Below the pieces are notes generated by a model. The model saw only the letters and a program-made list of their open reading frames with translations. It ran no database searches and was not told the origin of the DNA. DNA of 40,420 bases from Bacteroidales bacterium (lineage in GTDB: Bacteria; Bacteroidota; Bacteroidia; Bacteroidales; UBA12170). A program made the position numbers and the translations under genes. Shown here one piece after another: positions 28,091 to 33,428 of the stretch. The stretch's first letter is position 1, and each line of letters starts with the position of its first letter. The stretch covers positions 1-40,420 of the forward strand of contig JAGGUP010000109.1 in NCBI GenBank assembly GCA_021158405.1. The letters are read 5' to 3'.

Positions 28091-29476
28091 CTATTTCCTT
28101 ACTTTCTTAATAAAATCTTCAACTTCTGGAACTCCACCCTGAAAAATCAAATAGCCATTATAAGGTTCACGTTTGGTAATTTCATCGTTAATAGGTGTTA
28201 GCATTAACCTATTTACTTCTTCCGGATCGTCTGTTTGACCAAGCACCCAACCCAATTTTATATATGCCACTTCGGGCAACATATTTCCGGCAGGAATGAT
28301 TCCTTTAGCCATCATATCACGGCCTGTATCATACACAAACATATTCACATAACCCCAAAGCGTTTGAAGTGTCATAAACATGTGAACACCTTTTTTATGT
28401 GCTCTTTCGATGGCCGGATATAGCTCTTTATTTACGTGCCCTAATCCGGTTCCTACTATAATAATTCCTTTGTAACCTGCATCCACCATAGCATCCAAAA
28501 TATCGGGTTTCATGGCTGGATAATAATACATCATGGTTACTTTATCACTGAAATAAGGTAATATTTTTACATTTTTATCTTTGCGCCTGTGATTGTATTC
28601 CTTTTTAATGGTCTTAATCTCTCCCCTTCTAACGGAAGCTAAAGGCGTATCACCAATTGTGCGAAAAGTAGAGCGATAAGAAGAATGCATTTTCCTTACA
28701 CGCGTTCCTTTATGCAACAAGCCATAATCGTCGGAAGTGGGACCAAACATACAAATCATGACTTCTGCGATATCGCTGTGTCCGGCGGTATACATTGCAT
28801 GCATCAAATTAAGCGCAGCATCAGAGCTGGGTCTATCGGATGACCGTTGAGAACCCACCAAAACAATCGGAATCGGCGAATTTTGAATCATAAAAGTTAA
28901 GGCTGCACCTGTATGATGCAAGGTATCTGTTCCATGTCCAATGACGATTCCATCCACTCCATTTTCAATTTCACGACCAATAGCTTTTGCTAAGGCGATA
29001 TATTGCTTCGGCCCCATATTTTCGGAAAATACAGCAAATACTTTTTCTGTTTCAAGATTACATATATCAGCTAATTCAGGAACAGCGCCATATAATTCAC
29101 CCGGTGAGAAGGCAGGGATTACCGCTCCAGTTCTATAATCCAATCGAGAAGCAATGGTCCCTCCTGTGCCTAATAACTTTACTCTAGGGAATCCGGGAGT
29201 GGTTGGAAATTCTTTTTCTGGAATTTTATAATTGGCCTTTTTATAACCCGTTTCCTTCATTTTAACAATTGTCTGAATATCAATGCCAATATTGTATCCA
29301 GTAACAATTTTCATAACGATATGTTGGTCATCGTCGTTTTCGGCTCGCGGCAATATTGTTCCAACAAAAACTCCTCTACTAGTCTCCACATTGGCCTGAC
29401 CCCAAACACGAACCTGAAATTTTTTCAAAATGTTTAGAGCATCTCCTTTGTATCCTTGAAATATATCGTCTGTCAT
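28091..29476 (-). CDS. gatD: Archaeal-type Glu-tRNA(Gln) amidotransferase subunit D
   Basis: GatD is the asparaginase-like subunit that releases ammonia from glutamine (or asparagine) for GatE. This 461-residue form has the GatD-specific N-terminal barrel (residues 1-90, including GVFVGTILPRAENDDDQHIV and TGYNIGI) that simple L-asparaginases lack. The catalytic core shows Thr107 in LLGTGGTIAS, Thr183-Asp184 in GHGTDTLHHTG and Lys262 in GTRVRKMHSSYRS, the full Thr-Thr-Asp-Lys set. ATG 29476 is chosen. A GTG 19 codons upstream would place the start inside a dispersed repeat. It lies 150 bp downstream of gatE on the same strand. In Bacteria the usual enzyme is GatCAB, so this pair is unexpected. 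Confidence 0.9.
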   Translation of the reverse strand: MTDDIFQGYKGDALNILKKFQVRVWGQANVETSRGVFVGTILPRAENDDDQHIVMKIVTGYNIGIDIQTIVKMKETGYKKANYKIPEKEFPTTPGFPRVKLLGTGGTIASRLDYRTGAVIPAFSPGELYGAVPELADICNLETEKVFAVFSENMGPKQYIALAKAIGREIENGVDGIVIGHGTDTLHHTGAALTFMIQNSPIPIVLVGSQRSSDRPSSDAALNLMHAMYTAGHSDIAEVMICMFGPTSDDYGLLHKGTRVRKMHSSYRSTFRTIGDTPLASVRRGEIKTIKKEYNHRRKDKNVKILPYFSDKVTMMYYYPAMKPDILDAMVDAGYKGIIIVGTGLGHVNKELYPAIERAHKKGVHMFMTLQTLWGYVNMFVYDTGRDMMAKGIIPAGNMLPEVAYIKLGWVLGQTDDPEEVNRLMLTPINDEITKREPYNGYLIFQGGVPEVEDFIKKVRK

Positions 29477-29528
29477 TTTTTTTGGTTTTGCTATTCTTCT
29501 TGTTGAATTTTCAATAATGTAAAAGTTG

Positions 29529-29602
29529 GCCACGAATAAAAGAACTATTTATACGCTCCTCTTTGATTCAAATTTGAATCCTATAATTCGTGCATTAGTG
29601 TC
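29529..29602. repeat. Dispersed inverted repeat, CCACGAAT family (copy 2)
   Basis: GGCCACGAAT (29529-29537 region) faces ATTCGTGCATTAGTGTC (29586-29602). It sits in the gatE-gatD gap. A central palindrome GATTCAAATTTGAATC lies within. Confidence 0.6.
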
Positions 29603-29626
29603 ATTATTTATTTTTTCACATACATT

Positions 29627-31612
29627 TTAATCGTTTTCCAATTTCTCAGAAGCCGCCTTAACTTCTTTTTTCAAATCAGTTAGCGCCATATTCCCTAAAG
29701 CCAATTTTCGTATCTGACCCATTACCCAATTTTGAGTATTTAGTTCATTTACATTTCTACCAATTTGTTTGAATTTTTCAATCAGAAACAGAACCTGATC
29801 CAAAATTTGACTTCTTTTTACTTTTTTAAATTTAATGGTAGTCAAGACCGAATCGAACTGCATTTTAGGGTGTTCATACAACTGTTTCAACATCTCTTCA
29901 GCAATATCGAATTCAAGCTTATTATCCTTCAGATATTTAAATAAATTATAAAGCTGCTTATATTTAAAATTGGCGGCACGCCTATAATGACCTTCTATAT
30001 ATTTTAATCGATGACCCAGGAAATTACCCATATACTTCGGGTCAATCTTCAACTTTTCTTTGATATCGAGAATGAGCGGGAACAGGTTATTACTGAGTAT
30101 ATAATTATAAGTATCAACAGAAACTCCCCAAGCTCTAAGCTGATTATATCTATCAATTACATCGGTTGGTAAACCTTTGCCCAGATTATCAATATAATCG
30201 TTTGCCAATGGGATAGGCGCAGAATCCGTGTCCGGATACATACGATCAGCACCCGGCAATACCCGTTCAAAAATTGTAGTTCCATTCTCAAACGATTTTC
30301 GAGTTTCTTCAGGAACACCCTCAAAAGCCATCAAACATCTTTCTTCTATCGTTTCCAAAGCCGTTTTAATATCCTCTTTTGGACCCCAAAAAATCAATTG
30401 AGCATCGTCTTTTTCTGCTTGTAAAAGCGTTTTGATTTTCTCAAAATCCTCATCAGAAATACTTTGCTCCAAATCTTCCGAATTAGTCATGTTTGGCTTT
30501 TCCAAACAAGCAATTACTTTTAATCTATCGGCTATTTCATCGGCAAAAACTTTTCCCGGTTGTGTAAAATGTGATAGCAATTGTCCAAATTTCGGCAAAT
30601 TTGCAGCCCATATTTCAAAACCATTTTCTTTTGCAAATTCGATTTCTTTAGTCGGAAACTGAAACAAATAATAGTTCAGCTCTTTGGAATTCATTTTCCA
30701 ATCTGCCTTAGCCATTCTTTCTTTTAATACTTTGCGAATCTGTAATAAAGACCATTGCCTATACACCTCCACATGAGTAAGTTCCGGAATCCAACGTGTA
30801 TGTGCTACGCCTTTAATTTCGACACGAGTTCCACCTTTACAACTTACGTTTACATCCTGACGACCTGCACCCATACCTATTCTGACCAATCCGGTTGATC
30901 TATTTAAAAAACGAATATAATCACAAGCTTCTTTCACCTCATCGGGATTTACCATTTCGGGATACGTTACCGTTTCAATAAGCGGCATTCCTAGTCGGTC
31001 GGTCTTGTAAATTCGTTTATGACCAATATCAGAAACCTCCCGACAGCTATCCTCTTCAATACTCAGCTGTATCAGTTTTACTGTTTTGTTTTTAAGTGGA
31101 ATCTCCCCTTCTACTCCCAAAATTGCTGTTCTCTGAAAACCTGTAGGGATACTTCCATCGAGATATTGTTTGCGCGTAATATGTACTTCTCCAACAATGT
31201 TCAATCGCGATAGCAAAGAAATCTTTAAGGCAATTTCTAATGCATCTCTATTGATAGGAAATGGCGGCGTATCATCTACTTCATAAGTGCAGGCCGTTTC
31301 GTTTTTAAGCCGATAGGTAATCTCTTTTCGAGTTTTGAATTCCATCAAAGCGGTTCCATCGTATTCACCTAATTCACTTAATGTTGGGCGCATATGTCGA
31401 ATGACTTCCGCATCATACTCATTATGCTTTTGAAACTGACCGGCAGGGCAATGACAAAACAATTTTTCTTTGGTGAGCAATTGCTGATGAACTTCTAGTC
31501 CCGACATAAAACCAATACGGTCGTAATCGGCTTGCACAGCCTTTTTACGTTTTATATACCCTATGATTTTTTTTGTGTTTTGGTAGTTCTTGAGAGGATC
31601 AAACTTCTTCAT
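29627..31612 (-). CDS. gatE: Archaeal-type Glu-tRNA(Gln) amidotransferase subunit E
   Basis: GatE activates and amidates Glu-tRNA(Gln) using ammonia from GatD. The 661 residues follow the GatE plan. A GatB-like kinase fold shows FMSGLEVHQQLL, KLFCHCPA, DDTPPFPINRD, QYLDGSIPTGFQRT, YKTDRLGMPLIETVT and RQDVNVSCKGGTRVEIKGV. A GatE-specific AspRS-like inserted domain follows (about 395-500; PEETRKSFENG, LPGADRMYPDTDSAPIPL). A C-terminal helical and YqeY-like tail binds tRNA. The inserted domain separates it from bacterial GatB (about 480 residues). A -7 box lies 84 bp upstream. Order is gatE then gatD. Codon usage looks like its neighbours, so any transfer was not recent. Confidence 0.92.
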   Translation of the reverse strand: MKKFDPLKNYQNTKKIIGYIKRKKAVQADYDRIGFMSGLEVHQQLLTKEKLFCHCPAGQFQKHNEYDAEVIRHMRPTLSELGEYDGTALMEFKTRKEITYRLKNETACTYEVDDTPPFPINRDALEIALKISLLSRLNIVGEVHITRKQYLDGSIPTGFQRTAILGVEGEIPLKNKTVKLIQLSIEEDSCREVSDIGHKRIYKTDRLGMPLIETVTYPEMVNPDEVKEACDYIRFLNRSTGLVRIGMGAGRQDVNVSCKGGTRVEIKGVAHTRWIPELTHVEVYRQWSLLQIRKVLKERMAKADWKMNSKELNYYLFQFPTKEIEFAKENGFEIWAANLPKFGQLLSHFTQPGKVFADEIADRLKVIACLEKPNMTNSEDLEQSISDEDFEKIKTLLQAEKDDAQLIFWGPKEDIKTALETIEERCLMAFEGVPEETRKSFENGTTIFERVLPGADRMYPDTDSAPIPLANDYIDNLGKGLPTDVIDRYNQLRAWGVSVDTYNYILSNNLFPLILDIKEKLKIDPKYMGNFLGHRLKYIEGHYRRAANFKYKQLYNLFKYLKDNKLEFDIAEEMLKQLYEHPKMQFDSVLTTIKFKKVKRSQILDQVLFLIEKFKQIGRNVNELNTQNWVMGQIRKLALGNMALTDLKKEVKAASEKLEND

Positions 31613-32055: not shown

Positions 32056-32063
32056 TACTTTTG
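32056..32063 (+). promoter_or_regulatory. -7 box of the DnaQ/GIY-YIG gene
   Basis: TACTTTTG is exact, 15 bp before the ATG at 32079. The nearest TTTG (32044) is too close to be the -33 box. Confidence 0.55.
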
Positions 32064-32078
32064 ACGAAAGTCTATTTT

Positions 32079-33428
32079 ATGTTTGCCATCATCGATGTTG
32101 AAACAACCGGAGTAAATGCAAAAACCGATCGTATAACCGAAATCGCAATTGTTCTTTTTGATGGTGAGAAAATCATCAAAGAATTCTCCAGCCTAATTAA
32201 TCCGGAAAGAAAAATCTCCTATCACATCACCCAATTGACAGGGATTAATAATAAAATGGTTGAATCAGCTCCCAAATTTTATGAGCTGGCTAAAGAGATT
32301 GTGGAAATGACCGAAGACTGCCCTTTCGTGGGTCATAATGTGGCTTTTGATTACCGTTTTATTCGCGCCGAATTCGAAAGTTTAGGCTATAATTACGAAC
32401 GTAAAACATTAGATACACTTAGACTGGCTCGCAAATTTATTCCCGGACTCAGAAGTTATAGTCTGGGTAGATTATGCGAATCTATCGGGATAGAAATTAA
32501 CAATCGGCATCGTGCTCTAGGAGATGCTCGTGCAACCGTCGAGCTTTTTAAACGCATTTATCAATTTCAACCCGAGTTAGAAAGCGTTTCTTTAAAAGGT
32601 TTGCATTCTAATTTGAAGCAAGAAAAAATCGACTCTCTTCCTCAGGAAACCGGCGTATATTATTTCTACAACGATGCTAAAGAGTTGATTTATGTAGGGA
32701 AAAGCACAAATATCCACAGCCGCATGCTTCAGCATTTAAGCAATACTACGACAAAAAAAGCGCTTGAAATGAAAAATCGCATTGCCGATGTGGACTATGA
32801 ATTATGCGGAAGCGAATTGGTTGCTTTATTGCTCGAATCGGATGAAATAAAAAAAAACCTTCCGCTCTATAATCGTTCTCAAAGAAGAAGTTTGCACACC
32901 TGGGGATTGTATAGTTATGAAAACGAACAAGGCTACAATTGTTTAACTATTGAACGCACAAAAAACTCTACAGACACGCCCTTGACTTTATTCTCATCAA
33001 AGATGCAAGCCCAGGAACAATTGTTTCAGATTACCGAAACCTATCAACTTTGCCAAAAATTAAATGGTTTGTATCATAGTTCGGGAGCGTGTTTTCAATA
33101 TGGGATTAAACTTTGTAAGGGAGCTTGCATCGGCGAAGAAAATGCAGAAGACTACAATTTAAGAGTCCGTCAGCTAAAAGATTATTTCTCCCTCGATCAC
33201 AACAATATGATATTAGTAGATAAAGGTCGTTCAAAAGAAGAAAAAGCCATTGTTATGATTGAAAACGGTAGTTATTGTGGCTTTGGTTATATTGACGAAA
33301 ATATTTTAAATGATTCACCGGAAGATATCAAATCCTCTATAAGAAACTATGTTAACAATAGGGATACACAAAGCATTATCCGTTCATATTTGAGGCGTAA
33401 AAAAGTTGAACGAATTATTTATTTTTAG
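32079..33428 (+). CDS. DnaQ-like 3'-5' exonuclease fused to GIY-YIG (UvrC/Cho-like) nuclease
   Basis: A two-nuclease fusion of 449 residues. Residues 1-165 form a DEDDh exonuclease like the Pol III epsilon subunit: IIDVETTG (ExoI), GHNVAFDYRFI (ExoII) and HRALGDARATVEL (ExoIII, with the catalytic His). Residues about 190-290 form a GIY-YIG endonuclease: TGVYYFYN, ELIYVGKSTNIHSRMLQHL and the Glu in LLLESDEIKK. The C-terminal part has a Cys cluster (CFQYGIKLCKGACIG) as in Cho/UvrC N-terminal proteins. Family knowledge: similar fusions occur in Bacteroidota and Actinobacteria, and a role in DNA repair is inferred. ATG 32079 is preferred to a TTG at 32061, because IIDVETTG needs few residues before it and the promoter box overlaps the longer form. 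Confidence 0.9.
   Translation: MFAIIDVETTGVNAKTDRITEIAIVLFDGEKIIKEFSSLINPERKISYHITQLTGINNKMVESAPKFYELAKEIVEMTEDCPFVGHNVAFDYRFIRAEFESLGYNYERKTLDTLRLARKFIPGLRSYSLGRLCESIGIEINNRHRALGDARATVELFKRIYQFQPELESVSLKGLHSNLKQEKIDSLPQETGVYYFYNDAKELIYVGKSTNIHSRMLQHLSNTTTKKALEMKNRIADVDYELCGSELVALLLESDEIKKNLPLYNRSQRRSLHTWGLYSYENEQGYNCLTIERTKNSTDTPLTLFSSKMQAQEQLFQITETYQLCQKLNGLYHSSGACFQYGIKLCKGACIGEENAEDYNLRVRQLKDYFSLDHNNMILVDKGRSKEEKAIVMIENGSYCGFGYIDENILNDSPEDIKSSIRNYVNNRDTQSIIRSYLRRKKVERIIYF

Follow-up and report, generated by a model that had tools for sequence, protein, structure and literature searches.

We analyzed contig JAGGUP010000109.1, a 40,420-nucleotide stretch of DNA (hereafter the window) from the 187-contig draft assembly GCA_021158405.1 of a Bacteroidales bacterium (G000), and found a complete GatE-GatD pair encoded at positions 28091-31612, with both proteins above their NCBIfam cut-offs. 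The two are the subunits of the Glu-tRNA(Gln) amidotransferase GatDE, and their membership in that family by descent and architecture is near certain. In the excerpts available, three reviews (PMC9499178, 2022; PMC8007984, 2021; PMC8762117, 2022) describe GatDE as confined to Archaea, as an earlier sequence-only reading of this DNA had noted, and PMC8762117 treats it as an archaeal signature protein. The same genome also encodes glutaminyl-tRNA synthetase (GlnRS). We lean towards a working bacterial GatDE that amidates Glu-tRNA(Gln), as a backup or for repair of mischarging beside GlnRS. The features of the pair are as follows.

29627-31612, minus strand: gatE, 661 amino acids, Glu-tRNA(Gln) amidotransferase subunit GatE (NCBIfam, structure matches)
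30728-31528, minus strand: GatB/GatE catalytic cradle of GatE, residues 29-295 (PF02934)
30317-30709, minus strand: AspRS-like inserted domain of GatE, residues ~302-432 (predicted structure)
29630-30217, minus strand: predicted helical and YqeY-like tail of GatE, residues 466-661, expected to contact tRNA (model, TIGR00134)
28091-29476, minus strand: gatD, 461 amino acids, asparaginase-type subunit (NCBIfam; ATG common to relatives)
29261-29389, minus strand: N-terminal barrel of GatD (PF18195, 39.7 bits, cut-off 25.7)
29156-29158, minus strand: T107 codon of GatD (invariant in 26 of 26)
28925-28930, minus strand: T183 and D184 codons of GatD, HGTDT motif (invariant in 26 of 26)
28691-28693, minus strand: K262 codon of GatD, RVRKMHSS motif (invariant in 26 of 26)

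Family assignment and catalytic residues

GatE matched TIGR00134 at 402.6 bits (cut-off 319.55; profile positions 3-619 of 622, with the match reaching residue 652) and PRK04028 at 463.6 bits (cut-off 456), while GatD scored 498 bits on TIGR02153 (cut-off 324) and 501.6 bits on NF003217. Pfam recognized the barrel and both asparaginase domains in GatD, and in GatE the GatB/E cradle, the latter through PF02934 (GatB_N; 162 bits, residues 37-314). The closest solved structures by sequence are archaeal for both subunits: 2d6f_C (E = 5.4e-85) and 1zq1_C (1.4e-77) for GatE, with the best bacterial GatB at 2.1e-19, and 2d6f_A (9.7e-116) and 1zq1_A (1.1e-115) for GatD, with the best plain asparaginase at 3.7e-40. 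We rejected a GatB identity for GatE, which reached 114 bits on the gatB model against a cut-off of 314.8 and is separated from GatB by sequence search, tree and fold. A stand-alone L-asparaginase was likewise ruled out for GatD; it also passed the asnASE_I cut-off (371 against 260.5 bits), but it scored higher on the GatD model, carries the barrel, has a GatE partner and lies apart from the plain asparaginase tested. Neither of these placements, which the sequence-only reading had named as grounds for abandoning the assignment, turned up.

The open reading frame called mechanically for gatD is longer, opening at a GTG at 29533 and giving 480 amino acids; the relatives share an ATG that gives 461. 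In the 461-residue numbering, T107 (the first catalytic Thr), T183, D184 and K262, which we take to be the asparaginase-type catalytic residues, are invariant in all 26 bacterial GatD chosen for alignment. Together with the family scores and the barrel, this bears out the catalytic residues and the N-terminal domain of GatD that had been read from the letters alone. Codon use is that of the neighborhood, with log-odds per codon of 0.094 for gatE and 0.145 for gatD, and 0.092-0.266 for the other 23 scored genes of the window. We also observed a C-terminal extension of ~18 residues in bacterial GatD (QGG.PEVE.F, the named positions invariant in 26 of 26; window 28091-28150). The GatD of four relatives (L076, L084, L101 and L113) has an insert of ~24 residues after an R-R motif near position 298; three of the four titles are rumen or reticulum projects.

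Predicted structure of GatE

An AlphaFold model of GatE was built from an alignment of 56 bacterial GatE (mean predicted local distance difference test score 90.1, predicted template modeling score 0.85), and its matches in the PDB were found with Foldseek and re-compared. The best match was archaeal GatE 2d6f_D (Z 36.3, root-mean-square deviation (rmsd) 4.4, 509 residues aligned), followed by 1zq1_C (Z 32.5, rmsd 4.1, 501 aligned), and GatB chains ranked after these (Z 26-30). Structures of aspartyl-tRNA synthetase (AspRS) matched residues 302-432 (Z 9.1-10.8). The tail is made of helices in a mostly confident model, with some GatB chains aligning to residues 655-661; residues 482-661 also matched the N-terminal part of human GlnRS (Z 8.5), a helical likeness that may be only a common arrangement. 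Pfam found only GatB_N on the window GatE, and neither GAD nor GatB_Yqey, the latter being detected in 11 of the 16 members of A1. According to the model, the AspRS-like insert and the tail are nevertheless present, in agreement with the earlier description of a GatB-like core followed by these two parts. In known relatives both of them serve to bind tRNA. Of the 68 positions at which every filled row of the GatE alignment shows the same letter, 55 fall in the cradle; the alignment has 54 rows, of which 51 are bacterial and 3 archaeal, and no more than 2 are gapped at such a position.

Distribution and gene linkage

GatE was above the cut-off in 30 of the 395 genomes sampled from the phylum. 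Within the host's own class G000 was the only carrier (1 of 98 sampled genomes), with none among the five other genomes of its order; the remaining 29 carriers fall in 7 of the 43 families outside that class. Three carriers are single-contig genomes (G132, G294 and G124). A scan of named genomes gave at least 560 relatives among 583 candidate stretches, and the best 80 of these 560 (60-69% identity) were examined. Among these 80, 75 titles name Bacteroidota, mostly Bacteroidales, and the cultured carriers include Marinifilum flexuosum, Labilibaculum euxinus, Labilibaculum sp. K2S and Perlabentimonas gracilis. The other five, which may be misnamed, are two Aminicenantes (L085 and L103), one Chlorobiota (L097), one Archangium (L107) and L115. 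Bacterial GatDE is therefore patchy, neither rare nor general, and the window pair is one scattered member rather than a unique case.

Among viral contigs, 19 pattern matches included no relative, and plasmid records gave one match only, which was archaeal (Natrinema). In this record (L197; CP031304.1, Natrinema thermotolerans, labelled plasmid), the frame of the GatE coding stretch changes midway, and no gene is listed for it. Bacterial GatDE proteins have probably already been named by automatic annotation with the same NCBIfam models; no report of bacterial GatDE appeared in the titles and abstract openings of the literature searched, whose coverage leaves out most subscription journals.

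The two genes are linked. In 100 of 110 distinct loci, gatD follows gatE on the same strand (phmmer; L061, where the locus ends inside gatD, was added by tblastn), and with the neighbor-like codon use this agrees with the settled gene pair proposed earlier. No third gene is conserved with the pair, the best other neighbor occurring in 12 of 81 loci. Divergent from gatE, the window encodes at 32061-33428 a DEDDh exonuclease fused to a GIY-YIG (UvrC/Cho-like) domain.

Charging routes in the host genome

The GlnRS of G000 scored 733 bits (cut-off 425.8) and covered the whole profile (positions 1-524 of 524). Bacterial synthetases for Glu (GluRS), Asp (AspRS), Asn (AsnRS) and Lys (LysRS) are also encoded, with AspRS and AsnRS above cut-off. 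In the same genome the gatE and gatB models matched GatE only, so that no GatB was found, and the single amidase found (L036) fell below the GatA cut-off (211 against 481).

A search of G000 with RF00005 gave 40 tRNA matches, of which ARAGORN named 39; the remaining one, cut by a contig end, was unassigned to an amino acid. There is one tRNA-Gln, with anticodon UUG and a U1-A72 pair (pairing read by eye), and the 39 named tRNAs include no further tRNA-Gln for which a separate charging route would be needed. A tRNA-Asn was likewise absent from the 39 of 40 matches that were named, in an assembly rated 96.3% complete. The two tRNA-Glu (L265, 1290-1362 and 1500-1572) both carry G1-U72 rather than G1-C72 (by eye). 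Searches for tRNA-Gln by DNA pattern (57 and 12 genomes) missed the tRNA-Gln of G000, in which the base after the anticodon is G instead of A, and ARAGORN run on seven pattern-hit loci found a tRNA-Gln at one (L158, U1-A72). At L172 (~1480-1885; G132:C1 near 2631.7-2632.1 kb), a tRNA-Pro gene precedes four copies in tandem, at a spacing of 114 bases, of a stretch that ends in the 3' half of that tRNA.

Coexistence with GlnRS and GatB

Coexistence with GlnRS, one of the options raised by the sequence-only reading, is the common state. Among 99 distinct GatDE genomes, 92 have a GlnRS above the cut-off (45 of 50, then 47 of 50, with one repeat); the search took in 69 of the 80 named loci. The GatB search covered 50 of these 99 genomes. 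By this cut-off GlnRS was missing from G314, G287 and G251, which have GatB, and from G411 (L084; 1.4 Mb), in which GatDE and GluRS were found and neither GlnRS nor GatB. The GlnRS model matched nothing in G438 and G450, to which the GatB search did not extend. In G399, the genome of L054, GlnRS lies in three pieces on one contig (G399:C89, 3130-4544), owing to decay or sequencing error.

GatB was above the cut-off in 22 of the 50 GatDE genomes searched, comprising 22 of 29 from other classes and none of 20 from the named scan, and not in G000. With both direct synthetases in G000 and GatB retained in those 22, a replacement of GatCAB, which had also been suggested, does not hold as a general account. 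GlnRS is near general in the host's own class (93 of 98), so coexistence there needs no cause beyond the presence of GatDE. Outside that class, GlnRS occurs in 26 of 29 GatDE genomes and in 77 of 268 others (Fisher's exact test, P = 1.5e-10), an association confounded by kinship; by family, GatDE was found in 7 of 25 families with GlnRS and in 0 of 18 without (P = 0.03). These association counts were taken at the cut-off criterion (total 196).

Phylogeny, divergence and selection

The GatE tree resolved a Bacteroidales type that includes the window (support 100/100), a type of other classes (93/96) and a group of archaea (100/100), with L028 as an outlier; support for the joining of the two main bacterial types is 95/90. 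Eight near-identical rows and the GatB rows were left out of this main tree; a separate rooted quick tree included GatB, and GatE was separate from it. In the GatD tree, 48 bacterial rows stood apart from two archaeal ones (100, Shimodaira-Hasegawa-like approximate likelihood ratio test only) and the Bacteroidales type formed one nested group; L008 and L019, shortened by the locus end, and L016, which has no gatD, were left out. Long-branch warnings concerned L028 with the archaea (GatE and GatD trees) and the archaea with GatB (quick tree), and since long branches meet there, the deep branching order is unsure. An ancient horizontal transfer from Archaea, as proposed earlier, is plausible; the archaeal comparison consists of three GatE and two GatD sequences, too few to point to a donor, a direction or a number of transfers. 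Among the five carriers of family f36, G156 (L030, G156:C73) stands out by its Bacteroidales-type pair, the remaining four having the other type; this may reflect transfer or a stray contig.

Ratios of nonsynonymous to synonymous substitution rates (dN/dS) were estimated for nine pairs of relatives, none of which includes the window; some synonymous rates (dS) exceed 1, and saturated dS left no value for L050/L054 or for all but the insert of L094/L100. In the estimable pairs the ratio was 0.003-0.037 for the cradle, 0.011-0.106 for the insert, 0.08-0.14 for the tail and 0.005-0.037 for GatD. This strong purifying selection in the relatives indicates that the pair is in use. When the Bacteroidales type is compared with the other bacterial type, the cradle averages 65% identity, the insert 28% and the tail 16%; in a comparison with the archaea the same parts average 41%, 21% and 15%, two of the archaeal rows having only a partial tail. 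Judged from these alignments, the chemistry appears to be held fixed, while the parts expected to touch tRNA move.

Proposed function and alternatives

By analogy with the archaeal enzyme, GatD would hydrolyze an amide donor (Asn or Gln) and hand the ammonia to GatE, which, with ATP, would activate the side-chain carboxyl of Glu on mischarged Glu-tRNA(Gln) and amidate it, giving Gln-tRNA(Gln). With GlnRS present in the same cell, the main supply of Gln-tRNA(Gln) is not expected to come from the pair; rather, Glu-tRNA(Gln) arising by error or at low glutamine may be corrected by GatDE as a backup or repair enzyme.

Several observations weigh against this account. The tRNA-Gln of G000 has U1-A72, whereas A1-U72 is the form reported for the substrate of archaeal GatDE (in a review, seen in excerpt), and recognition therefore cannot be the same as in archaea. 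The GatE tail is as poorly conserved between the bacterial types, and towards the archaeal rows, as given above. GatDE is patchy even where GlnRS is all but constant (in family f18, 12 of 25 genomes carry it, and in f36, 5 of 13), which fits an accessory function and not an essential one. Ten of the 110 loci have no gatD beside gatE: five of these end within ~130 bases, L047 and L111 extend 0.7 and 1.3 kb downstream of gatE with no adjacent gatD, and L055, L056 and L069 extend ~5 kb downstream without one (phmmer and tblastn, within the locus only). Finally, the Arg at Thermus position 358 of GluRS is presumably a specificity residue, and its loss was tried as a sign of relaxed discrimination. 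It is kept in 21 of 21 Bacteroidota GluRS, including those of G314, G287 and G411, in which GlnRS was not found, and this residue is therefore not diagnostic either way. A description of GatDE as found in archaea only, in hosts without GlnRS, does not fit these bacterial hosts, most of which have GlnRS; this departure is one of distribution, not of structure, and membership by descent and architecture stands.

A more specific form of the repair role, which we put forward tentatively, is that GatDE is a dedicated quality-control amidotransferase repairing Gln-tRNA beside GlnRS, with its tRNA-contacting domains rebuilt for U1-A72 tRNA-Gln. If so, an enzyme that in archaea accompanies a lack of GlnRS would here have been turned into a partner of GlnRS in proofreading.

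It is rather unlikely, though this is the main rival and a live one, that the tRNA substrate has changed, with the same chemistry kept and the diverged insert and tail selecting, for example, Asp-tRNA(Asn) or a Glu-tRNA with a use other than Gln codons. The rival is live because insert and tail have diverged far more than the cradle; moreover, the Bacteroidales type sits on a long stem branch in the GatE tree (2.17 changes per column, against 0.51 for GatD), and the ancestral substrate should be scarce where GlnRS is present. Rapid change of the tail is, however, common to all groups (0.37 inside the other bacterial type; 0.35 for the archaea, with two partial rows), and thus its divergence alone does not show a switch of substrate. 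The AsnRS and bacterial AspRS of G000 also provide a direct route to Asn-tRNA(Asn).

We consider it improbable that, as in archaea, Gln-tRNA(Gln) is made mainly through GatDE, with GlnRS inactive or otherwise employed. G411 would fit such a role, but the host's own GlnRS covers the whole profile and most carriers have one; GlnRS is also present in the genome of L076, whose GatE row is nearest to that of G411, and in four more genomes of this kind (G416-G419), so an assembly gap is likelier in the small G411 genome. A substrate other than tRNA, with GatD as an asparaginase feeding GatE amidation of a metabolite or protein, seems equally improbable: the presence of GlnRS and the lack of a conserved neighbor tying the pair to translation would be consistent with it, but the AspRS-like insert and GatB-type tail are kept in the model and are under purifying selection in relatives. 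Contamination, a chimeric assembly or a mis-called family (GatB plus an asparaginase), for which the draft state of the assembly and the lack of GatE in the five other genomes of the order might speak, can be dismissed in view of neighbor-like codon use, cultured isolates among the best 80 relatives, the single-contig carriers and the separation of GatE from GatB, and the archaeal contamination that the sequence-only reading had allowed for is equally unsupported.

Comparison with known systems

In the review excerpts available, GlnRS is reported absent from archaea, and GatDE is invoked in arguments on the last common ancestor and on why archaea never acquired GlnRS. The occurrence of GatDE and GlnRS side by side in bacteria breaks the premises of both. 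The cultured hosts Marinifilum, Labilibaculum and Perlabentimonas make a role of GatDE in bacteria testable, and a repair role, if true, would be a new kind of safeguard for the distinction between Glu and Gln.

The pair resembles archaeal GatDE (Methanothermobacter, 2d6f with tRNA-Gln; Pyrococcus abyssi, 1zq1) in both subunits, in domain order and in fold, and bacterial and archaeal rows have in common the 68 GatE positions of one letter and the asparaginase motif set. It differs in its bacterial hosts with GlnRS, in the U1-A72 tRNA-Gln of the host, in the diverged insert and tail, and in a bacterial GatD ~18 residues longer than the two solved archaeal GatD ends (QGG.PEVE.F). With bacterial GatCAB it shares the kind of reaction and, in the GatE cradle and tail, the GatB fold, whereas GatD is an asparaginase-type and not a GatA-type amidase, and GatB was not found in G000. 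A further parallel is GatCAB beside both AsnRS and GlnRS (Bdellovibrio, Deinococcus and Thermus), where an amidotransferase is likewise kept despite both direct synthetases; according to the available part of PMC4206432, 68 of 547 genera keep GatCAB in this way, and 18 also lack Asn synthetase, with Bacteroidetes among the clades. Those systems are GatCAB, proposed to serve Asn formation on tRNA-Asn, whereas the amidotransferase kept beside both synthetases here is GatDE.

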